Below are positions 1 to 50,834 of a stretch of DNA of 64,000 bases, piece by piece. Every line of letters begins with the position of its first letter. The first letter of the stretch is position 1. The position numbers and the translations under genes are program-made. The DNA lies in contig CP126197.1 in assembly GCA_030272155.1 (NCBI GenBank), positions 806,001-870,000 on the forward strand. Direction: 5' to 3'. The DNA is from Tetradesmus obliquus. Lineage: Eukaryota > Chlorophyta > Chlorophyceae > Sphaeropleales > Scenedesmaceae. The notes under the pieces were generated by a model that ran no database searches, had not been told where the DNA came from, and worked only from the letters and a program-made list of their open reading frames with translations.

Positions 1-120
1 CTGCAGGTGCAACTTCAGCGGCAACGTGCACCGCTCAGGCGCCCTGATCGGCATCACTGACGGCTTCTTTTTTACCAGCCTGCGCAGCAGCAGCTTCTGC
101 CGCTCTTCTCATCCCTGACC
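1..120 (+). repeat. Exon-edge echo of the exon at 158
   Basis: This stretch repeats the acceptor and first ~95 bases of the exon beginning at 158 (same FSGN.HRSGALI reading), then runs out in a changed frame. It is a decayed upstream copy and not a separate exon. Confidence 0.75.
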
Positions 121-157
121 GGATCTACCCATTCATATGTTTGCCCGCTCCTTGCAG

Positions 158-2111
158 GTGCCGCTTCAGCGGCAACATGCACCGCTCAGGCGCCCTGATC
201 CGCGTCACTGACGGCTTTGCCCTAACCAGCCTGCGCAGCAGCAGCTTTGACAGCAACACTGCCACAGCTCTGCTGCGCTTTGAGGGCCGCACCTGGGTGC
301 TAGACACGGCGCAGTTCTTCAGGGCTTCGCAGTACCTGGATGTGCTGTACTATACGGAGTACGAGGGCAGCAGCAGGGGCGCATACAGCTATGCGCAGAA
401 GCAGCATGCGGCAGAGCTGGTGAGAGCGTGTGACACATCAGTGTCTGCAGGGATATGTTTAGGTGGGCTGTAGAACTGGCCCTTTGCGTTGCATGTTTCT
501 GCTAGACTTTCAAAAAGCAGCACGCAGCAGAGCTGGTGAGCACCCTGCTGGATGAGCACCTGCCGGGTGTGGTTGGCAGACGCTTGTGTACATGTGTTTC
601 ATGCGCACAGCTACGCGCAGAAGCAGCATGCGGCAGAACTGGTAAGTTGCTTATTTGGAGCAGAGCCTGCAGGGCTGTGTTTGGCGGATGCGTGTTTTGG
701 CTGGCCACAGAATGACCCTTCTCTGTCTGTTCCTGCAGTGGTGCCGCTTTGCTACCAGCATGCACACAAGTACCACAGGCATCAACTTTCAGCCTGCTGT
801 GCACTTCCCACTTCTGAGCATGGCCAGCCTCAGGATGGCTGAAATGTTGACGATCTGTGCTGCCCTCCTGCAGGCGCGCAAGGAGAGCAGTTCAGTGGAC
901 GCCTTTTGGCTGCTATCAGACTGTGCCCTCACCAACAACACGGTATTCCATGCGCTGCTGCTATCAGTCGGCAACCGCACCTCATGGAGAGAGTACATCA
1001 CACGAAAGGCAGATGTCCTGGAAGCTGGAGCGGCTGGCAATTCCCCACAAAGTGCAGAGCAGGTTGCAAAAGCCCTACCTCTTGACAATTATGCTGCCAG
1101 TTGGTGGGTCACCGGGTGCAAGGTGACTGGAAACAGGCTGGCGAGCCAATCTACTGCTGCTGCTACTGCTGCTGCTGCGGGAGGTGGCAGTACAGCTGCA
1201 GCAAAGCAGCGCAGGAAAGCAGCAGTACATGCGCCAGCAGCGGCTAACAGCAGCAGCAGCAGCAGCAGCGGCAGCTGGGCCGAGTGGGAGGCAGCAGGCC
1301 CTGGTGCAACATACGAGGATGCTGTCAGCGTTGTTATAACAGCGGGGCCAGATCTGCAGCAGAAACTGGCCCTTGGAGGAGCCAAATGTGCTGCTGCATT
1401 TGCTGAGGCTTATCGGGAAATGCAAACAGGGCTGCAGCTTCGTCGAGCTACACATGCCCGCCTGCCGGCTGTTATTTGGTCAACTTTCAACCAGGGCTAC
1501 CTGTCTGCAACAGAATTTGAAAATAACACGGGATTCAGCCACGTGTTACGTCATGATAACACGTTACTAACGTGGTTGGATGTGAAGTTGCGAGGCAATG
1601 CAGCTCAGGGGAGTGTAGTGGATTTGTGGTATGGCGACTTTTGGGCGAGGCAGGCGCAGCTGGTTGGCAACACCGCAAGCAATGGCAGCATATTGGATCT
1701 GGAGTCATTCATTGGCTCCTTTGACCAGGTGGGCTGCTTGATGTCTTAATCAGCTTCAAATCCGTTGTGATCATCGTCATTTGTATATTTATTATCATTA
1801 CCTTGCCAAATAGCGTCGCCAACAGCATGTGGCTCTGTTGAGCATGTGAGGCGCTTTGCGCTGAATTTGAATTTGAAATAACAAGCTATCAGGTTAATAA
1901 CATGCAGCTGGCATACGGCTATGCTGGCACAGCTGCAGCCAACATTGTCCATAAGGATGAACTGGTACACACTTACTGCGCTGCCCGCGAAACTTGCTTA
2001 TGTTGCAGGTGTCTGTCACTGGCAATGTAGCCGGCACACTAGGTGCAGCCAACACCACGCACGCCGGTACCAGCAACAGCAGCAACATCCGCACCAACAG
2101 CAGCAGCGACA

Positions 2112-2143
<32 letters not shown>

Positions 2144-2557
2144 GCTCCTGCCTGCAGCTTGTCTGCAGTGGCCAAGCTGTCGCATTTCGAATCTGGCCGC
2201 CTGCGCAACGTAACGCTGACCAACAACACCGGCTCCATTGCGCTAGACATCAATGGTTTCGCACTGGCTGAACCGGTTGAAGAATTGCTGGTCGCTGACA
2301 ATGCGGCAAGCGGCATACGCATGGTCAGCACACAGCCCAGGTGAGGCGGCAGCACGCTGAATTAGCACCTCTGGGACTTTGGATTGGGGTGACAGTTTAG
2401 GGTTGACGAGTTGACATGCCGTATTCAGCAGTGCACTGACATAGACATAGATGTTGTCATGGTAGCATGATCACAGGTACAACTTCATGTTAGCATGATC
2501 ACAAGAGCCAGGGTATCGTGCTGTCCAGGGTGCACATGCCGCCTCTTGGCCACACCT

Positions 2558-2588
<31 letters not shown>

Positions 2589-6637: not shown

Positions 6638-6668
<31 letters not shown>

Positions 6669-7287
6669 CCTGCTGCTGCTGCTGCTGCTGCTGCCAATGC
6701 ACTGTGAACTTCCACTCAGACGACATGAACTTCACGGTGCAGCTCACAGGCAGCCAGCAGTTTGGCGGGCAGGGCAGCGCCTTCAACAGCCAGCTGGGCA
6801 CCATCCAGCTGCACCCTTCCAATGACGGCCTGTTTGTGATCGGCTCGCTGAATACAAGCATGGGCAGCAGCGGCAACGCGCTGTTTTCGGGCATGGCAAT
6901 GCAGCCGGTGGAGGTAAGTAGGGGATTGTTTTGCACAATGAAACATTATTGTTGTTTTGTGAAGTGTGTGGCTGCGTATGCACACCGGGTCTGCCAATAT
7001 GGGCAGCAGCGCAATGCACTGTTTCGGGTGTAGCGATGCAGCCGGAGGAGGTAAGTAGGAGCTTGTTTTGCCCAACGAAACATTACTTTTGTTTTGTTTG
7101 AGATACGTGTGTGGCTGGGTATGCACGCCTGGTCTGCCAACTCCAGCATAGCAGGAGCGGCAATGCACTGTTCGGGTATGGCAATGCAGCCGGCGGAGGC
7201 AAGGCAATTCAGCTTGATGACCCTTGCTTGCCTATGTCAAAATATCTAACATGCCCCACTGCGGGCTGACATGTATATATGCCATTG

Positions 7288-7331: not shown

Positions 7332-10300
7332 AGGCTCCAATATCAAATCGGCAATACGCGTTCAGCTTTGCTGCAAGCTTTGGCGACGATCTGCTGCGCC
7401 AAGTGCAAGCTGTGACTGTGAGGGTGGAGCTGCTGCGATGCACCTGGGGGCAGTTCATGACGGTGAGGGTTTGGGGTTGTGGGGTTTTGGTGGATGCGCA
7501 AACCCTAGATGTTGACGACTTGCTGCGCCAGGTGCAAGCTGTCAGTGTAGGAGTGGAGCTGCTGCGCTGCACCTGGGGCCAGTTCATGACAGTGAGGGCT
7601 TGGGTTTGCTGTGTTGCGCACAATGCACGCCGCACCTGCCCTGCTAGCCGGAAATCCTCAATGCAAACTTCTCGCAGCAATCTAAGTCCTACCAACACCT
7701 GACCTATTCTGCCGCTTGCAGATCAACCGCTGCGTGCGCTGCAACCCGCTTGGCACCTACTCCCTGAACCCTACCATGCAGTGCCAGAGCTGCCCTGCTG
7801 GCGGGGTCTGCCTGAAAGGCCTGCTGGCTCCCTCTGAGGGCTTCTTCAGTTACAACCCATTTGTACCGCAGATCCTGAGGTGCCCGCTGCAAGGCGGCTG
7901 CCTCGGCGATTTGAATTCGAATTTGAATTCGGATTTGAATTCGGCTGAGGTGCAGCCGCTGGTGCAGCAGGCGCACGCGAGTGGCAGCAGCAGCGGGCGG
8001 CGGCTGTTGCTGCGGCGGCTGCTGCAAGCTGCTGCTGCTGCTCAAAGCAGCAATGAAACAGGCAGCAGCAGCGGTGGTCAGGCGGAGCCGCTGGTGCGGC
8101 TGAGTGCCCGCAATGCTGCGCTGCTGCAGTACCTGAGCCTGCTGTCTGAGCAGTGGACAGCTGACCCTACTGACGGCGTGCCTGTGCTGGCTGACATCAG
8201 CTATGGCCGGCTGCTGGAGGGCTGGCAGGCCCTGCAATGCAGTCCAGGGTGAGATGTTATGTTATTTTTTATTTATCGTTTGAATTTGGAGGCAGTTGCA
8301 GCGCGTGAGCATGCAGCTCGAGCAGTGCAACAAACAGTGTGCCGCGTGACAGGATCATTGGCAGCATGCTGTGCTGTGCTGAGGTATGTGGCTGCATGAA
8401 TCACTGACGGCGTGCCTGTGCTAGCTAACATCAGCTTTGGCCAGCTGCTGGGGGCCTGGAGGGACCTGCAGTGCAGCCCAGGGTGAGATGTTACGTTATT
8501 TTTGTCAACCGTTTGTTTTGGAGGTGGTTGCAGCGCGTGAGCATGCGGCTCGAGCAGTGCACCAGAAAGTGTGCCGCATGACGGCTGCATCAGCAACTTG
8601 CTGAGGTATGTTGCTGCATTGATGGCGTGCCTGTGCTGGCTGGGGTCAGCTATGGCCAGATGCTGGAGGGCTGGCAGGACCTGCAGTGCAGTCCGGGGTG
8701 AGAAATCATTTGATCATTTAATTGTGTGTCCTTAACCAGCTGTAAAGGCGGGCTCTTTGCATGTGCAGGTGGTGTATACACATGCAGCTCGAGCAGTGCA
8801 GAAACAGTTGTGCCGCGTGACAGGATCATTGCCTGCATGCTGTGCTGTGGTGAGGTATGTGGCTGCATGAATCACTGATGGCGTGCCTGTGGTGCTGCCA
8901 CCAGCTATGGCGAGCTGCTGGAGGGCTGGCAGGATCTGCAGTGCAGCCCAGGGTGAGATGTTATGTTATTTTTTATTTATCGTTTGAATTTGGAGGCAGT
9001 TGCAGCGCGTGAGCATGCAGCTTGAGCAGTGCAACAAACAGTGTGCCGCGTGACAGGATCATTGCCTGCATGCTGTGCTGTGGTGAGGTACGTGGCTGCA
9101 TGGATCACTGATGGCGAGCCTGTGGTGCTGACATCAGCTATGGCCAGCTGCTGGAGGGCTGGCAGGACCTGCAGTGCAGCCCAGGGTGAGCTCATGTTCG
9201 GGTTTACCCATGTGGTTGGCAGTTTCAGTTCAGAGTACATGCAGCATGCTGTTGTGTGAAGCAGAAGGGGCTTAGGCTGCTGTTGTACTGCTGGATGCTG
9301 TGTCGTGTTGTGCTGCGTTGCTGCGTGATTAATCGGCTCAAGAGCGTATTGGACACCTCGAGCTAGCATGCTGGACATTTTGGAAGTGGTTCTTCCGCGG
9401 CTCATCAGTGTACACAGTGCGTGAGTGAGTGAGTGACTACCCAGGCAGCTCTGCAGCTCTTGGGTAAGTTAAGGCTAAGAGGGTGTGTGTGGCCAGGAGC
9501 GGCGCCCCTGGGCTCCACCCCCTCTACCTGTCCGCTTGCGCCCTAGGGCGCAAGCGGGGCGTAATGCACGCATGCTCTGGGACCGACCCCGCTTGATGAC
9601 TGCAGCTACACTGGCATGCTCTGGGGCACCTCAACAGCTCACTTCCCTCTTGCTCACTTTTGTCATCAGTGTGATCTGCTGCTGGCTCGCCTCTTCTTGA
9701 TGACTGCAGCTACACTGGCATGCTGTGCGGCACCTGTGACAACTTCCACTTGCAGCCAGCCTGCGCTCAGTATCCATACACCTTGCCCGCCCTGTGCCTG
9801 CTCCACCATTATCTTACCTGTGGGTACACTGGCATGCGGTGCGGCACCTGCGACACTACTTGAAAGCCTATCAAAAGCCCTCAGTCCTTCTCATTCGTAT
9901 GTCTGCTGCTCTGTCGTGCCTTGCTGACTGCAGATGCACCGGCATGCTGTGCGGCACCGGTGACACCAACTTCAACTTGCAGCCAGCCGGTCCTCAACAT
10001 CCATTTGCCCTGCTGCCGTGCCTCACCTCACTGCCATCTCCCCTGCAGTTACACCAGCATGCTGTGCGGCACCTGTGACACCAACTTCACCCACCCCTCA
10101 CACAAGGGCATACAGATCCTGCACTTTTTATGCATCCACGGCACGAGTCACTACAAAGCATCATGCCTACCAGAAGAGCGGAAAAAGGACTGAACCTTCT
10201 CCTTCGTGTTCTCTGCTGCTGCCTTGCCCTGTCTTGTTGCTGGCTGCAGCTACACCGGCATGCTGTGCGGCACCTGTGACACCAACTTCACTGATTTATC

Positions 10301-10905
10301 AGGCATGTTGCTCACTCACTACTGATGTGCTCTGCTCCCTTGGGCCTTCCTCACCCTTATCCTGCCTGCAGCTACACCGGCATGCTGTGCGGCACCTGTG
10401 ACACCAACTTCACCGACTTGCAAGGCGGCACACCAATACGATATGGCTCCTATATGGGCAGCTGCGTGCGCTGCGGCAGCACAGCACGCATCTGGGCAGC
10501 ACTGATCGGGCTCTTTTTGGTGCTGTTCATGTACAACGCCTTTGGAATCTGCATGCAGCTGTATGCGCCACAGAAGCGGCAGCCGGGTGCTGGGCTGAAC
10601 AGGGCACCATCACAGCACTTGTACCGTTCGCAGGTGAGAGGAGCTGCAGCAGAAGATGGTTGAAGAGCAGCGGCAGCTGCTGCAGAGCTTGAGCTCCTTG
10701 CATGTGACGAAATCAAATGCATTGTTGCGTCTGCATTTGCTATGAGTCAATAAAGTGTTGATAAGACCGTGTTTGAACAAAACTACCCGGTGCGTGCGTG
10801 CAGGCCAAGCGCTGGCGTGATTTGCAGCAGCAGATCAGCCTGAAGCACAGCCTGAGTGGCACCAACGGCAGGCCCTCATTCACTGCCACAGCAGATAGCG
10901 AACAC

Positions 10906-12044: not shown

Positions 12045-15000
12045 GGCGCCGTCAGGCCTCACTGGCAGTCCTAGTGCGCTGTTCAGCCTCGGCAGTGGCG
12101 CTGCTAGTGGCACACTTGCTGCTGGTGCTGCTGGCGGCTCAGCGCGTCTGGGCGGGCCTGTGCCGCTGCTGGTGGGCATGTGGAAGATCCTGACCAGCTA
12201 CCTGCAGGTGAGATATTGATTGTTGAAAGGATACGGACGCGTTTTTGATCATTGGATTGTTTGTGTTATGGCAATTGGTGGGGGTGGGTGCTACTGGTGG
12301 GCATGTGGAAGATCCTCACCAGCTACCTGCAGGTGAGATCTGCTGTCTTGAGGTGAACACAGATGAACTTGCTACATTCTCAATTGCTATTTCCTAGCGT
12401 GCTCTAGTGGGCGCTGCTGGTGGGCATGTGGAAGACGACCAGCTGCCCGGAGGGAGACAATGCTGCAAGCATCAAACACATCATAAGCATAAGTCAACCA
12501 CTACTGTGTGCTTCCTGCACTCACTGCGAGTTGTAAGGACACGTTGTCAGCCCCTACCTCATTGCTGTTTTACCCGCATCCCCGTCGCAGGTGCTGGCCA
12601 TGGTGCGCTTTGTGCACCTGCGCATGCTGCCTTCCTATTCCTACACACATCACACCTGCAGGCAGCTGATAGCTGTCTTTGTTACCATATCTTCGCCGCA
12701 CCCCTGCTGCAGGTGCGCGTTGTGCACCTGCGCACGCTGCCCGCCTACTCCTACAAAGCCCTACTAGCATCACCAAGCCACCATACACACATCACACCTG
12801 CAGTTGCCTCAATACTGTATGCGCAACCTTGTCTCTGCTGCCGCAGGTGCTGGCCATGGTGCGCTTTGTGCACCTGTGCACGCTGCCCGCCTACTCCTAC
12901 ACAGCCCTGGCCTTCTCAGACCTCTCAGCACACCATCAACAGCCTGATTGCTTTCTGTACCGCATCCTTGCTGCAGGTGCTGGTCATAATGCAATTTGTG
13001 TCACCCGCTCACTCAGCATCAGCACGTCACCACACCACCACTACCCACGCAACCAATTGATCATTTGTGCTGCTATGTCTCTGCCGCAGGTGCTGGCCAT
13101 GGTGCATTATGTGCACCTGCGCACGCTGCCCGCCTACTCCTACAAAGCCCTACTAGCATCACCAAGCCACCATACACACATCACACCTGCAGTTGCCTCA
13201 ATACTGTATGCGCAACCTTGTCTCTGCTGCCGCAGGTGCTGGCCATGGTGCGCTTTGTGCACCTGTGCACGCTGCCCGCCTACTCCTACACAGCCCTGGC
13301 CTTCTCAGACCTCTCAGCACACCATCAACAGCCTGATTGCTTTCTGTACCGCATCCTTGCTGCAGGTGCTGGTCATGGTGCAATTTGTGTCACCCGCTCA
13401 CTCAGCATCAGCACGTCACCACACCACCACTACCCACGCAACCAATTGATCATTTGTGCTGCTATGTCTCTGCCGCAGGTGCTGGCCATGGTGCATTGTG
13501 TGCACCTGTGCACACTACCTGCCTACTTCTACAAGGCCGTACTAGCATCACCCAAGCCACCATATACACATCACACCTGCAATATAGCCTCATTACTACA
13601 TGCGCAACCGTGTCTCTGCTGCTGCAGGTGCTGGCCATGGTGCGCTTTGTGCAGCTGCGCACACTGCCCGCCTACTCCTACACAGCCCTGGCCTTCTCAG
13701 ACCTCTCAGCACACCATCAACAGCCTGATTGCTTTCTGTACCGCATCCTTGCTGCAGGTGCTGGTCATGGTGCAATTTGTGTCACCCGCTCACTCAGCAT
13801 CAGCACGTCACCACACCACCACTACCCACGCAACCAATTGATCATTTGTGCTGCTATGTCTCTGCCGCAGGTGCTGGCCATGGTGCATTGTGTGCACCTG
13901 TGCACACTACCTGCCTACTTCTACAAGGCCGTACTAGCATCACCCAAGCCACCATATACACATCACACCTGCAATATAGCCTCATTACTACATGCGCAAC
14001 CGTGTCTCTGCTGCTGCAGGTGCTGGCCATGGTGCGCTTTGTGCAGCTGCGCACACTGCCCGCCTACTCCTACACAGCCCTGGCCTTCTCAGACCTCTCA
14101 GCACACCATCAACAGCCTGATTGCTTTCTGTACCGCATCCTTGCTGCAGGTGCTGGTCATGGTGCAATTTGTGTCACCCGCTCACTCAGCATCAGCACGT
14201 CACCACACCACCACTACCCACGCAACCAATTGATCATTTGTGCTGCTATGTCTCTGCCGCAGGTGCTGGCCATGGTGCATTGTGTGCACCTGTGCACACT
14301 ACCTGCCTACTTCTACAAGGCCGTACTAGCATCACCCAAGCCACCATATACACATCACACCTGCAATATAGCCTCATTACTACATGCGCAACCGTGTCTC
14401 TGCTGCTGCAGGTGCTGGCCATGGTGCGCTTTGTGCAGCTGCGCACACTGCCCGCCTACTCCTACACAGCCCTGGCCTTCTCAGACCTCTCAGCACACCA
14501 TCAACAGCCTGATTGCTTTCTGTACCGCATCCTTGCTGCAGGTGCTGGTCATGGTGCAATTTGTGTCACCCGCTCACTCAGCATCAGCACGTCACCACAC
14601 CACCACTACCCACGCAACCAATTGATCATTTGTGCTGCTATGTCTCTGCCGCAGGTGCTGGCCATGGTGCATTGTGTGCACCTGTGCACACTACCTGCCT
14701 ACTTCTACAAGGCCGAACTAGCATCACCCAAGCCACCATGTACACATCACACCTGCAATATAGCCTCATTACTACATGCGCAACCGTGTCTCTGCTGCTG
14801 CAGGTGCTGGCCATGGTGCGCTTTGTGCAGCTGCGCACACTGCCCGCCTACTCCTACAAGGCCCTACTGGCATCACCAAGCCACCACACACACATCATAC
14901 CTGCAATATAGCCTGATTGCTATATGCGCAACCGTGTCTCTGCTGCCGCAGGTGCTGGCCATGGTGCGCTTTGTGCAGCTGCGCACACTGCCCGCCTACT

Positions 15001-36198: not shown

Positions 36199-36234
<36 letters not shown>

Positions 36235-39200
36235 CAGGTAAAGCGTGGGTCTCACGATGGGGTGGCGCGGCTTGGGGCGGTGCCAATCAGAGTCAGATGG
36301 CTGCGGCAGCGCCGACCTGTAAAAGCAGCAACAGCAACAGCAGCAGCAGCAGCAGCAGCAGCACAGGTGACGCGTGGGTCTCACGATGGGGTGGCGCGGC
36401 TTGGGGCGGTGCCAGTCTGAATCAGACGGCTGCGGCAGCGCAGACCTGTACAAGCAGCAGCAGCAGCAGCAGCAACAGATGTGAGGCGCTGGGCCCACTG
36501 TGAATGGCGCGGCTTGGGGCGGTGCCAGTCGCTGTCTAACGACTGCGGCAGCGCAAACCTGCAGCAGCAGCAGCAGCAGCAGCAAAGTGCAAGCTTCAGG
36601 CATGTCGTGCACACGAGGGTCTTGAAAGTAGTACAAGAGCCTTGCCGCATCAGCGGTGCAATGGGTGTCGCATAGCGCTTGACTGTTGGTGTGATAAAAT
36701 TGGCAAACTCAATGTGGCGGAAGAGCTCAGATGCCCCCTGCAACAAACTGTGCAAGCTTACATGGGCACAGCGCCAACCGCTGCAGCACGGACGCTTACA
36801 ACTCACCTCATGCAGGCCTCCAGCACAGGCAGTGCTGTCATGCTGCGCGGCACCTGGCTGTGCATAACAGAGCCCAGCCCCCAGCCCCAGCTCGCCAGCA
36901 GCCAGCCTTGTGTGTGCACTGATGCGCAACAACCAAGGCTAAGCACGAGTCCTGCCGTACATGTAACCAGCCAACCTCCAACGTGGGCAGCATGCGCCAC
37001 ATGTGCACCAGCTGTCACATGACACACAACCAACAGCATGGCTGCAGTGTCGCAGCATCTTTACGCACCTCATGCAGGCTTCCAGCACAGGCAGTGCTGT
37101 CACGCTGCGCGGCACCTGGCTGTGCATGGCAGCCCCCAGCCCCAGCTCCCCAGCAGCCAGCCGTGACCAGCCCTCCAGCACAACAGAGCCAGCAGCACCC
37201 TCCAGCAGCGCAGGACCACCTGCTGCTGCTGCTGCTGCTGCCGCTGCTGCTGCATCGCCAGCAGCCTGCTGCAGCGGACCGTTCGCTGCTGCTGCTGCAG
37301 CATCTGGCGCTGTTGCTGCTGCTGCTGCTGCCGCTGGCTGCTGCTTGTCAGCTGCGGCTGCTGCTGCAGGCGCGCCGGGGCCTGCTGCCTTGGCGCCTGC
37401 TGCTGCTGCTGCTGGTAGGCCCTTGGCAAGCACTGCTGCTGCAGTGGGAGCCGCACCTTGCTGCTGCTGCTGCTGCTGCTGTGGGGCATCAGCCGGCCCT
37501 GCTGCTGCAGGTGCTCCAGCAGCAGCTGCTGCCTTTGCTGATTCTGGCAGCCCAGCCATCCAAGCACCAAGCCTGCCGCCAGAAGGCGCACCGGGTGACG
37601 GCGCACCTGCTGCTGCTGGTGATGTGGGACCAGCTGCCTGCGCCTGCTGCTGCTGCTGTGCCTGCTGCTGCTGCGCCGCCTGCTGCTGCTGTTGCTGCGC
37701 CTGCTGCTGCTGCTGCGCCTGCTGTGCAGCTGCCAGCGCTTCTTGCTGCTGCTGCTGCTGCTCCTGCTGTTGTGCTTGCTGCTGCTGCTGCTGCTGCTGT
37801 TGCGCCTGCTGCGCTTGCTGTGCTGCTAGCTGCTGTTGCTGCTGCTGCTCCAGCTTCTGCTGCTGTTCCCGCACACCAGCTCCCACTAGAGCAGCTAGTG
37901 TCACACCAGCTGGCCGCCCAGCTGCTGCTGCTGCTGGCGGTGTAGGTGCCGGCCCCGCACCCACAGGAGGTGGCGGCGGAGGCGCTGCTGCTGCTGCTGC
38001 AGAGGCCGTTGCTGGTCCATTCTGAGCTGCTGCTGCTGCTGCTGGCGCATGATCTGCTGGAGACCCTGCTGCTGCTGCTGCGCTGCCTGGCCCGCCACGC
38101 GCCTGCGTATGCAGCGCACACAAGGCAGTGGCACAGGGACAGGAGTGAAGTCATGACTAATCCCAGCAGTGCATGCCTGTCATGTCAGCTATCCTCCTAT
38201 GTGCATGCATCACGACAACATACCAGCACAGCGCGACCAGCAGGGTATATCCCCGCCATCCCACTCTCTCGGGATTTGACACCAGACCCTGGGGTTTGGG
38301 TTGGGGCGCCCCTGGACCATGCCCACAAAGTCTCAAGCCTGTCTGAGAACTTTTGAATTAGGATCTGTCCCCCTTGACCCACCTGCTGTGCAGGCGTGTG
38401 CGGCAGCTCCCCAGACGCCCGAGGCGTCAGCTGCGTGCGCGGCGACGGCGGCACCACTGCCCCACCACCAGCAGCAGCAGCCGCCGGCGGCTGGATCGGC
38501 GCTGCGCCGAGTGGCGACGGCAGCGGCATGCTGCCAGGTGCTGCGCCGCTGCCGCTGCTGCTGAGGGGTGGCGGGCGCGGCAGCACACCATGCGGGCCCG
38601 ACTTGGGCCGCTCATCCTCCTCCAGCGGCTTCACACTGCGAGGGGGCGTGAAGTTTGGGGTGGAAGTGTGAAGTTGAGCGTGAAGTTGGGTGTGATGTTA
38701 GGTGTGAAGTTTGGTGTGAAGAGCACTGTGAAGTTCGCGCATGGGCTGGTGCAGGCTGCTGCACTGGCTGGACCGTGTTAGAACTCGGGTGGCAGTGGGC
38801 AGGGCATGTGCAGCTGCGAGATCAGCCAAAAGCACTGTAAAGATGGACAGTTTGAACAAGAAACAAAGCAGATCTGCGCACCTTCAAGCAGTGCTTGTCC
38901 AGGAGACCCCCTGCCCAAGGTCCCCCAGCACTGTGCACACGCTTATCGAGTCCGCCCGCCTACACATAACATGCCGCAGCATTGCTGCTGTTACACTCGC
39001 CACGCCAAGGACAGCACAATACACACAGCGCCCCGCCACTCACTTGCTGTTGCCCTGCGCGATGAGCTGCGCCTTGACTGCTGCTGCTGCCGCGCGCTCC
39101 CGCTCCCGCTCCTTCTCCTTCTCGCGCTCCTCGTCATCCTGCAGCATCAAAACAGTCACATGCATAAGGGCACACTTATGATCGTGGCATTATGTCAAAC

Positions 39201-42200
39201 ATGTCGGCAAGATATGTACGCTCGCACTCCTTCTCCTTCTCACGCCTCATCATCCTGCAGCGCATATACATAGCACAACACATGTTAGTGACGGTGCGTC
39301 ATACATTTCATGTGTTGACAGAATATGTGCGCTAGCGCTCCTTCTGCTTCTCGCGCTCCTCATCCTGCAGCGCTCAACATGTGACACATACGGTCACACG
39401 ATTGACCATGGCACCACTGACACATGCTGGCAAGATATGCGCGCTCCCCTCCATTCAACGCTCCTCATCGTCCTGCAGTTCACGCAGGAAAACTTCCGAG
39501 TTTTGGAAGCCCAGGTTTCGAACAATTACACAAAGAGACCCTGCCCAGTGAACTGCTAGGAAACACACCTTGCCGCCGCCACCGCTGCCCTTGGGTTTGC
39601 CGTCCTTGGCTTTCACGCCCATGTGCGCCCCAACGCCCGCCACCAGGGACGCTGCTGGTGCGGCCGCCTCCACAGCCTCCAGGCGGTCCACATGAACGTT
39701 ATAACACACAAAAGCAGCCCACACCTTGCCGCCGCCGCACTCGACTTGCCCACATCTGTGGGAACAGTGCAACTACACTGCGATATGCACACCGTGTTAA
39801 AGACAATTCGCACCTTGCCGCCGCCACCGCTCCCCTTGGGTTTGCCGTCCTTCGCTTTCACGCCCATGTGCGCCCCAACGCCCGCCACCAGCGATGCTGC
39901 TGGAGCAGCAGCCTCCACGGCCTCCAGGCGGTCCGCGATGTCGCAGTACATGTCGTCGGTGTTATCATAGTGCTCGTCAAGCTCCATGCCCTGCAGCATG
40001 GTATAACATTGTTAGGAGTGTTACATTGGATGTTACTTGTGTTAAATTGCAAAACACTGTGTGTGCGTTGGTGTTGGTGTGCACCAGTGCAGTACATGTC
40101 GTCCGTGTTGTCACAGTGCTCGTCAAGCTCCATGCCCTGCGGCACGTTATATTATGTTGCATTCGTGTTACTTTCATGTTAAGTTGGTGTGCATGACGTA
40201 TATGGGTGCATGTGGGTATACAGGGTGTGCAGTTGGTGTCAGCGTGCGCCGCAATACATCTTGTCTATATTGAAGTACTCAAGCAGCTCCATGCCCTGCA
40301 GTATGCTGTAACATGTTACAACATCACAAAAGCACGAAACAACCATGCAGCCCAAGCACAAAACTCACCAGGTGGTAGTCCAGGTCATCTTTGAGCGGGT
40401 CTTTCTCCTCAAACGTGATGGCGTTATTGTCCAGGCAGTCGCCACAAAACCCTGGAAGCTCAGTGCACCTAAACCCCAACCCTTCACATTGCTAAAACCA
40501 CAAACCCTGCCCACCATGTAGTAGTCCAGGTCATCCTTGAGCGGATCGATCTCCTCGCTGGTGATGGCGTCGTTGTCCAGGCAGCGCAGCGCCTTCTCCA
40601 GCGCGCTGGTGTGCTTCTTGTGCACAGTGACCACCTCCTCGAGCTACAGCATGATGAAGCAGCAGCAGCAGCAGCAGGGGCAGCAGGGGCAGGATGTAAA
40701 GAACAGGCCAAATGCATGCACTTGTGTGCTTCTTGTGCAGCGCAACCACCTCCTCCAGCTGCAGCAGCGGCAGGATGTGAAGGAAACAGCAAATATACAC
40801 CGCTGTGTTCCTTGTGCTCATTGACCACCTGCCGCAGCTGTATGCTGTGAACCCCGCGCACCTGCACCAGGCGTGGCGGCGGCTTGGCCTTCTTTTTTGA
40901 CTGGCCGCCAGCTCCTCAATCTCTTACTCAGAAGATTCAAATCATGTCAAATCTATGGTGAAATCAAACCTGCGCACCTGCACCAGGCGTGGCGGGGGTT
41001 TAGCCTTCTTCTTGAGCCCCGCTGCCAGCTCCTCCGTCCCGTACGCAAAAAGACTCAACCAAGTCAAGTCTATGGTCTAATACACCCTGCGCCCCTGCAC
41101 CAGGCGTGGCGGCGTTTTAGCCTTCTTTTTCAAACCCGCCGCCAGCTCCTCTATCTCGTACGCAGAAGACTCAAATAAGTCGAATCTATGGTCTATTAAA
41201 CCCTGCGCACCTGCACCAGGCGCGGCGGCGGCTTGGCCCTCTTTATCAAACCGGCCGCCAGCTCCTCTATCTCATACTCGTACGCCACCAACAAGCAACC
41301 ACCAACAGCAGCCACAGCCTCTTGCAAAGCTGCCACTGCCCACCAGAACCTACCACACACCCATCATACACACCCCGCACGCTGCTCTCCCATTGCCCTA
41401 TGTTTAAGTCTGTGCCTTGGCAGCTGTCTTGATGCAAGCACAATCAACACATACACACACCTGCACCAGGCGTGGCGGGGGTTTAGCCTTCTTCTTGAGC
41501 CCTGCAGCCAGCTCCTCCATCTCATACTCATACGCCTCAATGGCCACATGCAGCCGGTCCACCATGTCATTGATCCACTCGCGGCTCTCAGCCTTGGCCT
41601 GCTCCTTGGGGTCAAGCTTGTCAGCCTGCAGGGGAAAAAAGCAGCGGCAGATGCGCACAGCAGGGTTTGAACAGGGGCATGAGGCGGTTCAGCCGGTCCA
41701 CCATGTCATACGTCCACAAGCGGGACTCGGCCTTGGCCTAGCTGCAAGTCAAAGCACACCACGCTGGGACTGCTGCCACGCGCTGCTTGTTGCATATACC
41801 GCAATCCCCAGCGCTGCCTGGCATCAAGTGGCCCCGAGATGTTGCTGCTGCTGCTGCTGCTGGTACTTCTTTTGACACTGCAAAGGTGCTCACGGCCGAT
41901 CGTACCAGTCCTGTTGCTGTAGCGCCAATGTTGCTGCTGCTGCCAGCACAACATGCAATGTACCCGCGCCGATGCTGCCTTTCTGTGCATCAACTGCCCG
42001 CTGCATACAGATCACTGCTGCTCTTTCCAGGCACCGCCCATTGCGCGCCGCACCTGCCCCAGGGGCCTGCCTGAACTAACGTGACAGCCGCACACGCTGC
42101 TACTGCTGCTGCTGCTGCTCTTTGGCTATTTCTCTTCAGCCACCTGATACACCTAACCCAGCCTTGCTGTAGCAGATGCCGCTTACGAGCTGCTGCTGCT

Positions 42201-44541
42201 CTCTGCGACCGCATCGCACGCCCCATAGGCACTTTGCTGCAGCTTCTTCACTGCAGCAAACGCAGTGCTGCTCCTCGACTACATCACTTTCTGCTGTGGC
42301 ACCTGCCCCAGCGCCGCCTCGCTGAGCTGCTTCACCTTGGCCTCTGTGCCACACTGCCGCTGCTACCGCATGCCTCTATTGCTTCTACTGCATGTTGCTT
42401 CAGACACATCGCACGTGCCCCAGCGCCGCCTTGCTCAACTGCTTCATCTTGGCCTCTGTTTCGCCCTGCCGCTGCTACCGCATGCCTCTATTGCTGCTGC
42501 TGCATGTTGCTTCAAACGCATCGCACCTGCCCCAGCACCGCCTTGCTGAACTGCTTCATCTTGGCCTCTGTTTCGCCCTGCCGCTGCTACCGCATGCGTC
42601 TATTGCTGCTGCTCCATGTTGCTTCAAACGCATCGCACCTGCCCCAGCACCGCCTTGCTGAACTGCTTCATCTTGCCCTCTGTCCCACACTGCCGCTGCT
42701 ACCGCATGCCTCTATTGCTGCTACTGCATGTTGCTTCAAACGCATCGCACCTGCCCCAGTGCCGCCTTGCTGAACTGCTTCATCTTGGCCTCTTTTTCGC
42801 ACGTCTTGAAGCGCTCCATCTCCCGCTCTATGGACTTGCGAGCCTCCATCAGCGCGCTCTTGTCCTTGATGTCCGCGCCGGATATCCTGCAAGCATAACA
42901 CAACAGGCAAGGCACATGGTACAAGCGGCACCACTATACAAATGTCTATACGATGCGCAGAGTTGTCCTTGATGTCCGCGCCAGATATCCTGCAAGCACA
43001 CCATGCACAACGGTTCATTGTAGGGCGGTTTCCTTGCAGCACAGTGCAGTGTGGCACAGCCCCAAGCAGCGCAGACTTGTCCTTGATGTCCGCGCCAGAG
43101 ATCCTGCAAAGAGACATCAGGCACAAATGGTCAACGTAACACAATTGCAGAGCTGCACACATCAGCGGGACCCAGTGCAGTGTGGCACAGCCTCGGTAGC
43201 GCAGACTTGTCCTTGATGTCCACGCCAGAGATCCTGCAAAAGGCATCAGGCACAACATTCAGCAAAGCGGGGCACCGTGCAGTGCGGCGCATGGCAGCCC
43301 ACTATCGCACAGCATCCAGCAGCGTGCTGTTGTCTTTTCAGCCCGCGCCAGAGATCCTGCAGCGGAAGCAGTCGAAATGCACCACAAAAGGCAACAACAC
43401 CGCAGTTCAGTGCTGCGTGACAGTGCAGAGCAGCACAGCCCCCAGCAGCGCGGACTTGTCCTTGATGTCCGCGCCGCAGATCCTGCAAAGAGACAAGCGA
43501 GGCACTGACATTTCATTGCAGCGCCGTCTTGCAGGACATACGTAGCGTACGAAACAAAGCACGCGGTGCAGCCCAGCATAACAGTTTCTAGCGCTGGCAC
43601 ACAAGGGACAGTTAACCCAGCCCAGTGCTGCACAGACACCGCTTGCCAGGCAGACAGCGCGTGCTGGTGCAGCCAGATGCGTGCAAGGTGCGGTGTGGGA
43701 GCAGGGACAGGGTGGAAAAGTGCAGCTGCTGCATTCCTTGTCATCTCGTACCTGCAGAACGTGCTCAGGTGCCATTTGCTATCTGTACATTGGCAGGCTG
43801 CTGCATCAGCAACAGCAGCTGCAGCAAGCAATGCACCAAAGCATCAGCCACACCATGCAGCACAGAAACATCATTTCCAAGCTTCTGACTGACGTTTAAC
43901 GGTTTTCTTACAATTGCAACATGCTTGCACAGCGTGCAGCCTGCTGTTGCTGTTGCTGCTGCTGCTGTCCGGTTGCTGCTGCTGCGCCTCTGCTGCTCAC
44001 CATGACTTGATCTGGTCACGCAGCCGCTGCAGCTTCTTGATCTCCTTCTTGAGATCAGCCTCAAACTTCTCCTTCTGATTGGCGTTCTCCGTGTCGTGCA
44101 CCTGCCACAGCAGCATGCACAGTGCCCTGTCAACCGCTGCACTGCTGTGGAGCCCTGCTGTCAATGCCAGGGCCGGCCATGCTGTCACTGCTGGCTGGAA
44201 AACTAAAAACTTCTGTTAGGTTGCAACTTTTCTCCAGAACGAGGTCGCGGAGGGGGCCGAGTAACCCAGAAGCCGATAGATGGCTGATGGGGCTGTTCAA
44301 CAAGCCACCCCAGGCAACCTGGCGTATCCAACCTCATCCTAAATCTCATACAAGCGTACCTTTTGCCATATTTGATCAAACTCGTCTATGCCCTCCTGCA
44401 CTTTCTTCAAGCATCGATCGATCTCGCTCTGCACGCAGCAGCACCGTGTTCAAGTTCTAAACGAACACCAAAGCATTTTATGGATCAAAAAACGTGCGAA
44501 TGAGGGTCCCCACACACCTGCAGCTTGCGTGCAGCACCCAT
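34285..44541 (-). CDS. NOT3: CCR4-NOT complex subunit NOT3 (CNOT3/NOT5)
   Basis: Scaffold subunit of the CCR4-NOT deadenylase and transcription-control complex. Exons in transcript order: 44518-44541, 44360-44428, 44001-44101, 42751-42886, 41461-41625, 40515-40643, 39814-39990, 39044-39138, 38383-38635, 37069-38102, 35995-36193, 35198-35320, 34694-34755, 34285-34327. All junctions keep phase, giving 869 residues (plant NOT3 is ~845, human 753). The N-terminal coiled-coil Not3 domain (1-~210) shows [41 protein letters not shown] and RDQIKSW, then CLDNDAI..E. The middle (383-~690) is Gln/Ala-rich. The C-terminal NOT box (~730-869) has [55 protein letters not shown] and a short LEDE tail. It is divergent to the transporter at 45096. 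Introns are packed with exon-edge echoes. Confidence 0.93.
35060..35130 (-). repeat. Echo of NOT3 exon 12 end
   Basis: Downstream copy of the [15 protein letters not shown] end of exon 35198-35320 (about 35077-35128). The donor is altered to a ctgagt-like sequence. Confidence 0.75.
35580..35935 (-). repeat. Three echoes of NOT3 exon 11 end
   Basis: Copies at about 35862-35935, 35722-35800 and 35582-35665 repeat [21 protein letters not shown] with gtgcg or gtgcgg-type donors. Divergence increases with distance from the real exon end at 35995. Confidence 0.82.
36255..36935 (-). repeat. Echoes in NOT3 intron 10
   Basis: Three copies of the exon 11 start (about 36260-36320, 36380-36448 and 36500-36560; [18 protein letters not shown]), each behind (CTG)n-acceptor sequence on the sense strand, plus one copy of the exon 10 end (about 36800-36935; [19 protein letters not shown]). 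The remaining stretch 36600-36750 reads openly but has no family match. Confidence 0.8.
39230..39745 (-). repeat. Echoes of NOT3 exon 8 start and exon 7 end
   Basis: Three copies of the exon 8 start ([11 protein letters not shown]) at about 39228-39258, 39340-39370 and 39455-39477, each at a gcag acceptor. One good copy of the exon 7 end at about 39569-39690 ([20 protein letters not shown]) and a fragment at 39723-39745. Confidence 0.78.
40080..40440 (-). repeat. Echoes of NOT3 exon 7 start and exon 6 end
   Basis: Exon 7 start ([16 protein letters not shown]) is repeated near 40089-40141 and, more degraded, near 40250-40300. Exon 6 end ([11 protein letters not shown]) is repeated at 40371-40440 with its flank. 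Confidence 0.78.
40726..41290 (-). repeat. Echoes of NOT3 exon 6 start and exon 5 end
   Basis: Exon 6 start ([12 protein letters not shown]) is repeated at 40726-40765 and 40800-40850. Exon 5 end ([22 protein letters not shown]) is repeated four times at about 40858-40925, 40974-41050, 41093-41165 and 41209-41288, each followed in the sense direction by a gtgcg/gcgcag-type donor region. Confidence 0.83.
41684..42740 (-). repeat. Echoes of NOT3 exon 5 start and exon 4 end
   Basis: Exon 5 interior/start (AKAESR..DMVDRL) is repeated at 41684-41760. Exon 4 end ([11 protein letters not shown] plus gtgcgatg donor) is repeated four to five times between about 42296 and 42690 in a roughly 117-bp tandem unit. 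The units also hold (CTG/CAG)n-like stretches. Confidence 0.82.
42945..43495 (-). repeat. Five echoes of NOT3 exon 4 start
   Basis: Copies at about 42956-42992, 43071-43106, 43199-43240, 43312-43362 and 43447-43492 repeat the [12 protein letters not shown] start of exon 4 with a tttgcag-type acceptor. Each stops without reaching the exon body. Confidence 0.85.
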
Positions 44542-46212: not shown

Positions 46213-46282
46213 ACTACTATAGCCCACACTTGCCCCCTCAGCATCCAGCTCAGCCGTGACCGAGCCTCGCCAGCACCCGAAC

Positions 46283-46314
<32 letters not shown>

Positions 46315-46389
46315 GCTGCTGTGGCCCACACTTGCCCCCTCAGCATCCAGCTCAGCCGTGACCCGAGCCTCGCCAGCACCCGAACCTGC

Positions 46390-46423
<34 letters not shown>

Positions 46424-47238
46424 GCTGCTGCCGCAGCAGCAGCATCCAGCTCAGCCGCGACCTGGGCCTCGCCAACACCTGAATCTGCTGCTGCTGCTGC
46501 TGCTGCCGCCGCCGCCGCAGCATCCAGCTCAGTCGCGACCTGGGCCTGTCCAGCACAGTCTACGGCCTAGGCAGTGGTGCCTTCTTCCTGGCCTATGCGG
46601 CGGGGCAGCTGCCCGCCAACCTGCTGCTGCTGCGCTTCGGGGGCCCTGCCTGGCTCGCTGCCATCACCATCGTGTGGGGCCTCGCTGCCTCGGTGAGTTA
46701 TTGCCAGGTCCAGCAAGTTGTTGCTGATCATCGTGCTGCGGGGCTGAGCTGCACCTGTGAGTGGGGCAACCTGTGGCACAGCCTTGGCCCTGAAAGTAGC
46801 TTTAGCCGTCGTGTGGTAATCAATTTTGCTTGGGGCCCCTGTCTGGCTCGCTGCCATCACAGTTGTGTGGGGCCTGGCTGCCTTGGTGAGTGATTGCTAC
46901 TAAACCATAGCATAGCTAAGGAGTGGCTGGATTCGTGTAGCTGTGGCGTGACTGGCTGCCGTCTCAGTTGTGTGGTGCCTCGCTGCCTCGGTGTGTGGTT
47001 GATGTTGCTCACTTATGGCTTGGTTTCTGTCATTGCTGTTCCGTGACTGGCTGCCATAACAATTGTGTGGGGCCTGGCTGCCTCGGTGAGTGGTTGCTAT
47101 GGATTTGGATGGCTGGGTTTGTGTCTTTGCTGTGGCTTGACTTGCAGCCATCAGCATCGTGTGTGGGCTGGCTGCCTCGATGAGCCTGCCTCAATGAGCC
47201 CTCTTTGTTATGGCTTTGGCATGGCTTGGTTTGTATCA

Positions 47239-47296: not shown

Positions 47297-47376
47297 TGTC
47301 GCCATGCAGGCGTTTGCGCTGGTGCGCGGCCCTGTGAGCTTTGTGCTGCTGCGGCTGCTGCTAGGCCTGGCTGAGA

Positions 47377-47409
<33 letters not shown>

Positions 47410-48805
47410 ACAGGCCTTTGCTCTGGTGCGTGGCCCGGTCAGCTTTGTGCTGCTGCGGCTGCTGCTGGGCCTGGCTGAGAGTGGGGCACTGCCAGGGGTG
47501 TGGTACTACGTGTCACAGTTCTACCCGGCTGACAAGACCACGCTGCCTTACTCACTCATTGAGACGGGCATAACCGTGTCACAGGTGGGTGTGCTTCAGG
47601 CGGTAGTGACACATATCTTACAGCATGCAGTGAGTTGCCAGCTGACGTGAAGAGGGATCCTGTCTTCTTTTGGCTTTGGCATACATGGGATCAGGTTGCA
47701 TCACACAGCTGTAGGCGCGTGCTTGCAGTGTAGCATGCAGCGCTGCGGGCGCATGTCGAGATCTGTTCTTGTGCATGCTGCCTGCAGGTGGTTGCTGCGC
47801 CGGTGGCTGCTGGCCTGCTGCTGCTGGATGGTGTGGGTGGGCTGCGCGGCTGGCAGTGGCTGTTTTTGCTGGAGGGCCTGCCCGCGCTGCTGCTGGGCTG
47901 TGCGCTGAGGTAAGAGAACTACTTTGAAACAGCAGACCATGTGTGGACCATAGGGTGACTGGGGCGTTGAATAATGTCAAGTACTCAGCAGCAGCGGCTG
48001 TTTTTGCTGGGGGGGGCTGCCTGCGCTGCTGCTGGGCTGTGCGCTGAGGTAACAGGACTTGTTTAGAACAGCAGAACATTTGTAAACCATAGGGTGACTG
48101 GGGCGTTGAAGAATGTTCGGCTACTCAGCAGCAGTGGCTGTTCCCGCTGGAGGGGCTGCTGTAGTGGCTGACAGAAGACCATTTGTTGACCATAGGGTGA
48201 CTGGGGCAGCAGTGGCTGTTCCTGCTTGAGGGGCTGCCTGTACTGCTGCTGGGCTGCGTGCTGAGGTAAGGGTGAATGTGTAGATCGTCCAAAGACAGGC
48301 TTGCAGGACTGCTTGGGGCTTGAAAAAGAAGTCCCCTCCAGCCGTGGCTGGTCCTGATGGAGGGCCTGCTGCTGGGGTGCGCGATCGGGTCAGAGAAATA
48401 TGGGTTTTGAACACGCTTTTCAAAGGTGCTTGAGGTATCGGGTGTGCCCCCCTTCAGCTTGGGGGCTTGTCAAGCTTGAACCCCTTGACAGCTGTGGCAG
48501 GTTGCATGGTCACTGGGATGTTGAGCATCTTGAGCTTTGCGTGGACTGTCAGGGTGGACGGCTGACGTACATGCAGAGAATTTGCTGTTGCTCTGTTTTC
48601 CCGCTGCAGAAACTGACTGTCAGCTAGCCTTGCTGCTGCCAGCGCATGTCTCTTGCCAGCGGCATAGGCATGTCCAACACCTGCTGCTGCTGCTGCTGCT
48701 GCTGCTGCTACCTTTGTGTCTCCCATGCGCAGGTTCTGGCTGCTAGCCAGCATTGCCACTGCCAGCTTCATGCCACCTACCATGTCATTCAGCCGTTACA
48801 CCTGC

Positions 48806-48863
<58 letters not shown>

Positions 48864-50834
48864 TCTCATACTCACAGGTTCTGGCTGCCAGCCAGCATTG
48901 CCACTGCCAGCTTCATGCCGCCTACCATGTCATTCATCCTTAAAACCTGCCGCTGCCGCTGCTGCTGCTGCTGCTGACGTGTCTTTTGTTCACAGGTTCT
49001 GGCTGCCAGCCAGCATTGCCACTGCCAGCTGCATCTCACTAATCGTGTCATGCGCCTATCACACCTGCTCCTGCTGCTACTGCTGCTGCTGCTGCTGCTG
49101 TTGCCGTGCCGCCTATGCGCAGGTTCCTCCTGCCAGCCAGCATTGCCACTGCCAGCTTCATGCCACCTACCATGTCATTCGTCTCCAAAACCTGCCGCTG
49201 CTGCTGCTGCTGACACGTCTTTTTATTGCAGGTTCTGGCTGCCAGCCAGCATTGCCACTGCCACCTAGTCAGCATGTGTATAAGCTGTCTCACCCGCTGC
49301 TGCTGCTGCTGCTGCTGTTGTTGCATCTCATACTCACAGGTTCTGGCTGCCGGCCAGCATTGCCACTGCCAGCTTCATGCCGCCTAGCCAGCGAGAGGCC
49401 CTCAGCAAAGCAGTGGCAGCAGCTGCTGCTGCTGCAGCAGCTGCTGCGGAAGCAGACGATGCAGCTATGCTAAGCGCAGCAGCCAGCAAGGTTCTACCTG
49501 TGGAAGATGATGTCATGGTGTGTGTGCACAGCGGATCAGCTGCCCTTTGCAGCAGAACCACCAGCAGCAGCATGCCCGACCAACCGCAGCAGTCAAAACG
49601 GCAGCAGCAGCAGCAGCAACAGCACAAGCACATAGCGGCTACACCAACAGGGCCTGAGCAAGATATAGAGCAAGCCAGCAGTATGGCAGCAGCAGCAGCA
49701 GCAGCAGCAGCAGACGACAGTGAGCGGCAATCACTGCTAGGTGCTGGCCGCTCACCATTCGCTGCTGCTGCAAGTAGCAACACCTTGCTCCACAGCGACA
49801 CCAGCAGCAAGCGGGCCAGTCCCTTAGCAGCAGGCAGCTTCACAGGCTGCTGCAGCAGCGAGCTTGGCTGCAGCACCTCCTCCGGCTACAGCATTAGCAG
49901 CAGCAGCAGCAAGTGGCAGGCACTGCTGGCGGTTGCCCGCAACAGAGTTGTGCTGTATGCCGGCTGCTGGCGCATCCTGCATGACATTGCCGGCAATGGC
50001 ATTCTGTACTACACGCCAATGATTGTGCAGGCAATGCTGCTTGCTGGTGGTGGTGGTAATCTTGGCGGCGGTGACACAGGGCGCAGATTGGATGCTGTAG
50101 CCAGCCCTCAGTTGCCGGCCTCCAGCTCAAGCAGCAGTGGCAGCAGCGGCAGCAGCGGCAGCAGCAGCAGCAGCGCGCTTGCTGCTGCTGGCCTAGCCAT
50201 CGGCTTCGCAATCACAAACAGCAGCAGCAGCAGCAGCAGCATCTTCAGCAGTAGCCCAGTGCCAAGTGCAGCAACAGCAGAGCCTGCAGGAGGTCCTGCG
50301 GGCTCGCCAGGTGCTGATGTGGTGCTGCTCAGCGCAATACCTTATGCTGCTGCCTCACTGTTCCACCTGGCTAATGCCTGGCACAGCCAGAGGAGTGGCG
50401 AGCGGCGCTGGCACATTGCAGGTGCATGGCTGCTGGGTGCGGCTGCACTGCTGCTGCTGCCTGCTGCAGCAGCCGGCAGCCTGGCGGCTGCCTCTACAGC
50501 AGCAGCAGTTGGGAGTGTGTCTGCGGCGGCTAGTGCTGCTGCGTTTGTACTGCTGACGCTGGCGCATGTCGGGGTGAACGGCGCAAACGGAGTGCAGACA
50601 GGCCTAGTCGCTGCAAACATTGTGCAGCAGGAGAAGGCACTGGGGCTAGCGATGTACAATACGATCGGATGTTTTGGGTCGTTCTGGGGCCCAGTGATCA
50701 TCGGTGTGCTGCATGACGCCACCGGCGGCTATGGCGTGGCAATGGTGCTGCTGGGAGGCTGCTTGGCAGCAGCTGCGGCTATGGTTGCTCTCTTCAGGCC
50801 TGAGCGGCTGGACAGCAGGTTGGCACGCAAGTAG
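45096..50834 (+). CDS. Major facilitator transporter, ACS (anion:cation symporter) type
   Basis: Twelve-helix secondary transporter that probably imports an organic or inorganic anion; the substrate is not deducible. Exons 45096-45447, 45895-45922, 46521-46692, 47414-47584, 47788-47909 and 49340-50834 join in phase to 779 residues. The first helix runs through VLPLLLLLVMVSYIDRTNLSFAS, with the split ACS-type IDRTNLSFA motif created exactly at the splice junctions. Further landmarks are SRDLGLSSTVYGLGSGAFFL, RLLLGLAESGALPGVWYYVS, the GWQWLFLLEGLPALLLG end of helix 6, and near the C-terminus GPVIIGVLHDATGGYG. Bacterial and plant relatives are ~430-550 residues. The extra length is a ~105-residue hydrophilic N-terminus, an Ala/Gln/Ser-rich loop between helices 6 and 7 (~300-470) and a Ser/Gly insert after helix 7. 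The 28-base exon 2 is unusually small but restores both motif and frame. Confidence 0.85.
46225..46465 (+). repeat. Three echoes of transporter exon 3 start
   Basis: Copies near 46237, 46338 and 46438 repeat the IQLSRDLGL exon start behind a ccctcag or gcagcag acceptor, separated by (CTG)n runs. The exon proper starts at 46521. Confidence 0.8.
46825..47185 (+). repeat. Four echoes of transporter exon 3 end
   Basis: Copies near 46828-46887, 46949-46997, 47047-47092 and 47146-47182 repeat AAITIVWGLAAS and the GTGAGTG donor, in steps of roughly 100-120 bp. Confidence 0.83.
47311..47395 (+). repeat. Echo of transporter exon 4 start
   Basis: Repeats AFALVRGPVSFVLLRLLLGLAES behind its own (CTG)n and CAG acceptor (exon-like start at 47311), then runs into a second (CTG)n before the real exon at 47414. 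Confidence 0.85.
47985..48390 (+). repeat. Echoes of transporter exon 5 end
   Basis: Copies near 47990-48052, 48125-48160 (poor), 48208-48268 and 48340-48385 repeat QWLFLLEGLPALLLGCALR with a gtaag-type donor and the shared intron flank. Confidence 0.8.
48730..49270 (+). repeat. Five echoes of transporter exon 6 start
   Basis: Copies beginning near 48733, 48879, 48996, 49123 and 49232 repeat FWLPASIATASFMPPTMSF behind a CAG acceptor and (CTG)n. The unit is about 110-145 bp. The real exon begins at 49340. Confidence 0.85.

Follow-up and report, generated by a model that had tools for sequence, protein, structure and literature searches.

Introns of the green alga Tetradesmus obliquus very probably grow by recurrent local tandem duplication of ~120-base segments that straddle exon-intron junctions. 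We analyzed a window of 64,000 bases (C7:806001-870000), together with genes and stretches elsewhere in the genome of 104,662,953 bases (17 contigs). Partial copies of the adjoining exon edges were found in the introns, copies of an exon start lying in the upstream intron and copies of an exon end in the downstream intron, and intron length increases with the number of copies. For T. obliquus UTEX393, a published table (PMC5966456) lists a GC content of 57%, 7.8 introns per gene and a mean intron length of 462 bases; its introns are longer than those of the four other green algae in the same table.

Genes and copies examined

For the main tests we used four genes checked by homology, with 32 introns in total: CCT1, CCT2 and CCT5, which lie on three further contigs, and an MFS transporter gene in the window. 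Their exon boundaries were taken from spliced alignment. These genes carry the main tests because ab initio gene models call copies as exons: the first ab initio models merged genes and took copies for exons, and the second version was better, with the same flaw remaining. Nearly the entire length of the CCT1 model (407 residues) and of the CCT2 model (478 residues) can be aligned to solved chaperonin subunits, and the CCT5 model aligns to algal orthologs. The MFS gene, on the forward strand, has four exons in one open frame of 652 residues (Pfam MFS_1, E = 3.6e-20).

A catalogue of 120 copies in six genes was also compiled, 59 of them in the three checked genes of the window. Besides the MFS gene (12 copies), these are a reverse-strand Not3 gene (13 copies; Pfam Not3, E = 3.9e-29 on the translation of two exons, 41461..41625 and 42751..42886) and a large forward-strand gene (34 copies) with one open frame across four exons and no Pfam match, for which “TRP-like” is a mere label. 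An earlier note on this DNA had described exon-edge copies in at least four unrelated genes on both strands. A fourth gene of the window, on the reverse strand at 34-39 kb, is an ab initio model only.

Copies occur on one side of each exon edge

Probes of 40 nucleotides from the start, end and middle of exons were compared against both flanking introns, with a match threshold of 21.3. The null, in which probes were set against introns from other genes (1,656 comparisons), had a 99.9th percentile of 20.3 and a maximum of 23. In the four checked genes, 21 of 32 junctions have exon-start copies in the upstream intron (40 copies), and 16 of 32 have exon-end copies in the downstream intron (30 copies). 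No copy was found in the wrong direction in these genes, neither exon starts downstream (0/32) nor exon ends upstream (0/32), so that the direction rule claimed earlier holds at 0/64. Mid-exon probes matched in 4 of 42 comparisons (1/21 upstream, 3/21 downstream). CCT2, a gene without prior sign of copies, has exon-start copies at 5 of 9 junctions and exon-end copies at 2 of 9. Furthermore, none of the 120 catalogued copies spans a whole exon, as expected from the claim that each copy carries one splice site only.

Among ab initio exons outside the window, exon starts matched upstream in 11 of 82 versus downstream in 2 of 82, and exon ends matched downstream in 18 of 81 versus upstream in 1 of 81. 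Within the window the direction is blurred (starts, 19/49 upstream versus 8/49 downstream; ends, 20/49 downstream versus 11/49 upstream), as the ab initio models took some of the copies for exons. The corresponding copy counts are 51 starts upstream, 44 ends downstream, 28 starts downstream and 17 ends upstream; the earlier estimate of over 100 copies is plausible as an approximate number. Reverse-complement controls on ab initio exons gave no match in the window (0/49 and 0/49) or outside it (0/82, 0/81 and 0/79).

Intron length follows copy number

Copies are present in 24 of the 32 introns (73 copies at a threshold of 20), and both kinds are present in 13. The median intron length is 290 bases without copies versus 693 bases with copies, and across the 32 introns length is described by 343 + 139 × copies (r = 0.72, P = 4×10−6; Spearman 0.83). 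The slope of 139 bases per copy is close to the spacing of successive junction copies, which has a median of 125.5 bases and a 5th percentile of 98 (n = 120, six genes). Of the 120 copies, 89 lie far enough away for their intron flank to be compared with the real flank, and in 33% of these the match exceeds the 95% null. Taken with the direction rule and the sampling elsewhere in the genome described below, these results strongly support the earlier interpretation of intron growth by junction-spanning duplication; what they demonstrate is growth, as distinct from the gain of introns that the note also mentions.

Local direct repeats in the window and elsewhere

A self-comparison of the window was performed with simple repeats masked (12% of the window). 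Local direct repeats dominate, covering 25.9% of the window as against 0.5% for inverted repeats; of 326 direct pairs, 325 are separated by no more than 3 kb and none by more than 5 kb, and there are 5 inverted pairs. The repeats group into 38 clusters, of which 36 lie in 1-49,386, one at 60.2 kb and one at 63.8 kb; the self-comparison found no cluster between 49.4 and 60.2 kb. The smallest offset is 72-262 bases in 37 of the 38 clusters and 900 bases in the one at 60.2 kb. CAG/CTG triplet runs are plentiful across the whole window.

Twenty 10-kb stretches at fixed positions were sampled elsewhere in the genome, 17 of them at 1 Mb (one per contig) and the other three at 3 Mb. Some direct repeat was present in 17 of the 20 and none in 3, and repeats at an offset of 60-250 bases were present in 14. 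Median coverage was 12.2% for direct versus 0% for inverted repeats. Nearest-repeat offsets peak at 100-140 bases both in the window (38/90) and outside it (45/110), whereas a second rise at 200-250 bases is clear in the window (19/90) and not outside (9/110). The exon-edge arrays of the earlier note are real; the window is richer in repeats than average, yet the feature extends well beyond it.

Two of the 20 stretches are dominated by longer repeats, which inflate the mean coverage. In L036 (C17:1000001-1010000) a direct repeat with an offset of ~6.4 kb covers the entire stretch (1-10000), and L035 (C16:1000001-1010000) has a direct-repeat coverage of 58% with a median offset of 1.4 kb, above the usual unit.

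Proposed mechanism and the anatomy of the unit

Under the duplication mechanism that we favor, a donor event would copy the exon end, the GT and the intron start, and the copy would land downstream of the donor in use; an acceptor event would copy the intron end, the AG and the exon start, and land upstream of the acceptor in use. Such duplications would be tolerated because the outermost pair of splice sites stays in use, leaving the mRNA and the protein unchanged. Each event would lengthen the intron by one unit and add a near-perfect decoy site, and units would be recopied into arrays and then decay. The duplications themselves may be approximately random, with exon integrity and splicing acting as filters, and exon definition, a copy having no partner site, may be the reason that decoys are mostly ignored.

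Alternatively, the DNA event itself may be aimed at exon edges, with splicing as a secondary filter; for example, a ~120-base replication or chromatin unit could be copied between positions that exon-bound nucleosomes or co-transcriptional splicing structures set. We consider this possible, though on balance it is not the account we would choose. Both this reading and the favored mechanism draw on single-step units, defined by a spacing of up to 180 bases with the TRP-like gene left out (42 of the 45 copies at acceptors and 31 of the 41 at donors). Their size is narrow and common to both edges, 121.8 bases at acceptors (standard deviation 17) and 121.4 at donors (standard deviation 19), and their exon and intron parts are anticorrelated (r = −0.47 and −0.38). 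The exon part in the 73 single-step copies has a mean of 49.4 nucleotides (standard deviation 15.5), where uniform breakpoints would give 67, and it exceeds 85 nucleotides in none of the 73 as compared with 28% expected (6 of 120 in the whole catalogue, maximum 100). However, this exon part is equivalent to a uniform range of 22-76 nucleotides (mean 49, standard deviation 15.6), meaning an intron part of at least ~46 nucleotides, and such a minimum points to a filter and not a target. At acceptors, the minimum would be explained by retention of the branch point.

Targeting is also favored by the scarcity of intron-only local repeats (12 of 132 pairs in the four checked genes, and 3 of 47 at an identity of at least 90%), but this count is subject to a visibility bias, as a constrained exon keeps edge copies recognizable for longer than intron-only copies. 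Similarly, the 56 distinct breakpoints lie near 0.41 of exon length with a spread narrower than uniform, but their position shows no correlation with exon length (rho = 0.01). A rule placing breakpoints at exon midpoints was considered and not adopted, given this narrow spread without correlation.

Several observations weigh against the favored mechanism. The intron part at donors also has a 5th percentile of 47 nucleotides, which lies beyond the branch-point argument. Under strict scoring, the intron flank aligns over fewer than 15 nucleotides in 53 of 73 copies and over fewer than 8 in 47. When probes were matched to the introns of their own gene in reverse complement (128 comparisons; 99th percentile 13.7, maximum 25), at least one exceeded the match threshold. 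Mid-exon probes outside the window matched in 9 of 79 on each side, perhaps reflecting wrong ab initio exons. Lastly, differences between copies and exons are in excess at third codon positions (68, 68 and 296 at positions 1, 2 and 3 in five genes; 29, 55 and 92 in the TRP-like gene), above the prediction of simple neutral decay, and the source of some copies may therefore not be the adjoining exon.

Divergence of the copies

Where a junction has at least two copies, the real exon carries 3 nonsynonymous and 33 synonymous changes of its own (N3:S33), in comparison with N66:S72 for changes unique to a copy. We therefore infer that the real exon copy is the constrained one. The strict N/S ratio of the copies is 0.49, versus 1.38 expected from a substitution table based on 1,122 aligned intron-flank bases, a rough neutral expectation. 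This low ratio first looked like coding constraint. However, the excess of third-position changes is partly present among the copies themselves, copies with the same inner breakpoint differing at 30, 30 and 54 sites of positions 1, 2 and 3 without the TRP-like gene and at 79, 113 and 164 in it, and the copy spacing is not locked to the reading frame (32, 44 and 44 spacings by remainder modulo 3). The third-position excess could have contributions from diverged haplotypes, from mutational bias and from constraint.

The first of these amounts to a different origin of the copies, namely unequal exchange in a diploid alga whose haplotypes have diverged strongly, so that the synonymous differences would predate the duplication. 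This is in line with the third-position excess and with N and S being uncorrelated across copies (r = −0.09). Assemblies of other strains offer a hint of such haplotypes. Strain DOE0152z has an assembly of 208 Mb versus ~109 Mb for UTEX393 (PMC5552973), for which the haplotype reading is our own, and a secondary haplotype has been predicted in Scenedesmus NREL 46B-D3, according to the available text of its report (PMC7955037). Since same-breakpoint copies are also mildly third-position heavy, part of the excess may be mutational. We regard haplotype exchange as rather unlikely.

Decoy splice sites and their use

The splice dinucleotide is kept in 111 of the 120 copies (AG in 69 of 73 acceptor copies, GT in 42 of 47 donor copies); in the four strict genes AG is kept in 38 of 40 and GT in 30 of 33. 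Mean scores are lower for copies than for real sites, 8.7 versus 11.2 at donors (P = 0.0017) and 9.8 versus 11.9 at acceptors (P = 0.014), with a matrix trained on the same real sites and thus favoring them. Nonetheless, 17 of 47 donor and 37 of 73 acceptor copies score at or above the lower quartile of real sites. The gene models use the 5′-most donor and the 3′-most acceptor, and in these models splice-site choice is set by position and not by strength alone. Recursive-splicing sites would have GT immediately after AG in all copies and be removed stepwise; many acceptor copies read CAG/GT, and others read CAG/AT, CAG/GC or CAG/AA.

The prediction that the protein is left unchanged is supported by CCT1. 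Its annotated isoform P0241 (OEZ86_010546, 547 residues) is encoded in 13 exons over 10.8 kb, includes no copy and agrees at 539 of 539 compared residues. P0243, which differs from it by one residue, comes from contigs no longer than 1,853 bases, which we take to be spliced RNA. Another annotated isoform, P0242, is P0241 with nine additional residues. These are explained by a 27-nucleotide micro-exon within a donor copy, using the copy's own donor (L043 792-818; C16:4180291-4180317). In addition, the UniProt T. obliquus CCT5 protein (P0121) has a 15-residue insert that maps to a copy at L041:8194-8238, so that a separate database record also contains a copy; four residues, in the insert or at its end, differ from the genome copy. 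The P0121 protein is probably mis-annotated. Decoys are planted, as the earlier note claimed, but in the databases their silence is incomplete: an annotated CCT1 isoform and a UniProt CCT5 entry, both protein models, hold copy-derived micro-exons.

Retention of AG and GT, the third-position-heavy divergence and these two database proteins could also be taken to mean that the copies are functional, as alternative exon edges, as recursive-splicing steps or as decoys recruiting U1 and U2AF. We find this improbable. Besides the absence of frame lock and the lower scores of copy sites, whose matrix bias is given above, the inner breakpoints of 73 copies show by eye no regular second splice site, and the retention agrees with the divergence in the copy lineages at codon positions 1 and 2 (107 of 2,552, 4.2%) without any selection. 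An assembly artefact is extremely improbable: although some units are nearly identical (the 392-base units, 98%), the identity of nearest repeat pairs is mostly in the range of 70-97% (from the 5th to the 95th percentile), with private differences, the CCT5 insert differs from the genome's copy, and the two annotated CCT1 isoforms differ by one copy.

A candidate intron birth in CCT1, between duplicated exon pieces indicated by overlapping domain hits, was rejected; the sequence consists of donor and acceptor echoes and the 27-nucleotide micro-exon. In the CCT1 of Scenedesmus sp. NREL 46B-D3 (P0245), an unrelated stretch stands where exon 4 of T. obliquus CCT1 ends, which is an echoed edge. 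Similar arrays perhaps confuse annotation in that alga.

Relation to known systems

Introner elements plant splice sites in many genes and are dispersed. The T. obliquus copies, in contrast, are found only locally: one exon-edge probe has at least 19 matches in the genome, and those listed lie within 3.4 kb on C7. Intronic minisatellites are tandem arrays of decaying units. The arrays described here share with them the tandem repetition and a typical period (~122 bases, standard deviation 17-19) but differ in that the units are anchored on exon edges and change from intron to intron. Whole-exon duplication, as in mutually exclusive exons, carries both splice sites, unlike any of the 120 copies, and NAGNAG-type sites lie a few nucleotides apart, unlike spacings with a median of 125 bases and a 5th percentile of 98. 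Zhuo et al. in 2007 reportedly derived human introns from tandem arrays, which, judging from the title, concerns intron origin and not junction echoes.

Duplication-based intron gain has been described in single cases, as far as the consulted portions of two reports extend (PMC4974935, potato; PMC2891723). In the Rogers model and the potato case (PMC4974935), tandem duplication likewise supplies the splice sites, and in the Rogers model the peptide is unaltered. However, the available part of that report concerns a single or few cases and new introns, whereas in T. obliquus old introns lengthen, the original sites are used and 24 of the 32 introns in the checked genes are affected. Drosophila proto-splice-site duplication (PMC2891723) shares the local tandem duplication with splice motifs; unlike in T. 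obliquus, it proceeds, in the sections consulted, by exonic duplication and then intronization (~5 of 31 cases). No description of junction-echo arrays was found in the literature searched. Neither “intron” nor “tandem” occurs in the main text, as available, of a comparative Sphaeropleales genome paper (PMC12571836), and “intron” is absent from the accessible text of the Scenedesmus NREL 46B-D3 paper (PMC7955037).

The class of mechanism is known; the density, exclusive direction, size ruler and length law are new to us. Tentatively, and with less than even confidence, we suggest that size-ruled, junction-centered duplication of ~120 bases from exon edge into intron is the main source of intron length genome-wide, accompanied by a rule of outermost-site splicing that withstands dozens of near-perfect decoys. 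The arrays bear on two old questions, how introns lengthen without transposons and how the right site is chosen among near-perfect decoys. They provide a countable record, with one unit per event, a direction that reveals the source edge and natural decoys beside the real sites. There is also a risk to gene models in these algae, the database CCT1 and CCT5 entries already holding copy-derived inserts.

Arrays along the window

In the TRP-like gene (all features on the forward strand), the 3′ edge of the exon at 7722..8248, whose open frame continues in phase into the next exons, is echoed in a donor-edge array at 8249..9190. This array, as read from the sequence, holds four copies of the exon end plus GTGAG with a tandem period of 233 bases. 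The same intron contains an acceptor-edge array of six exon-start copies (9573..10371), upstream of the exon at 10372..10633 whose 5′ edge is echoed. Two donor-edge echoes at 12208..12453 are followed by the largest acceptor-edge array (12557..15618), with 22 copies of the start of the exon at 15619..16365. A genome search with 15619-15960 returned at least 18 partial copies, all those listed lying upstream in the adjoining intron. The array is partly in a 392-base higher-order unit, and a higher-order array was observed at 12721-14865, each 392-base unit comprising several echo units with 98% matches. Further downstream, an echo array at 17629..18871 on the same strand precedes the exon 18872-19386, which is ab initio only.

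On the reverse strand, two adjoining repeat arrays at 35578..36560 lie at the edges of ab initio exons without homology check. Also on this strand, the Not3 gene has a donor-edge array of four copies at 40850..41460 beside the Pfam-matched exon 41461..41625, a second donor-edge array of four copies with a period of 112 bases at 42299..42750, the Pfam-matched exon 42751..42886, both edges of which are echoed, and an acceptor-edge array of five copies at 42887..43495.

The MFS gene, on the forward strand, has acceptor-edge echoes at 46222..46520 (~3 by eye, outside the counts) before the exon 46521..46692. The following intron has a donor-edge array of four copies (46693..47184) and one acceptor-edge echo (47309..47413), and it ends at the exon 47414..47584. 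The exon 47788..47909 is followed by donor-edge echoes (47910..48270, two above threshold) and an acceptor-edge array of five copies (48714..49339) in front of the terminal exon (49340..50834).

In the cluster-free zone from 49.4 to 60.2 kb, an open frame on the reverse strand at 55947-57368 contains a MYND finger (Pfam, E = 1.9e-7). At 60238-61696, two repeats of ~700 bases are 71% alike and 905 bases apart; they are larger than, and unlike, the 120-base echoes.

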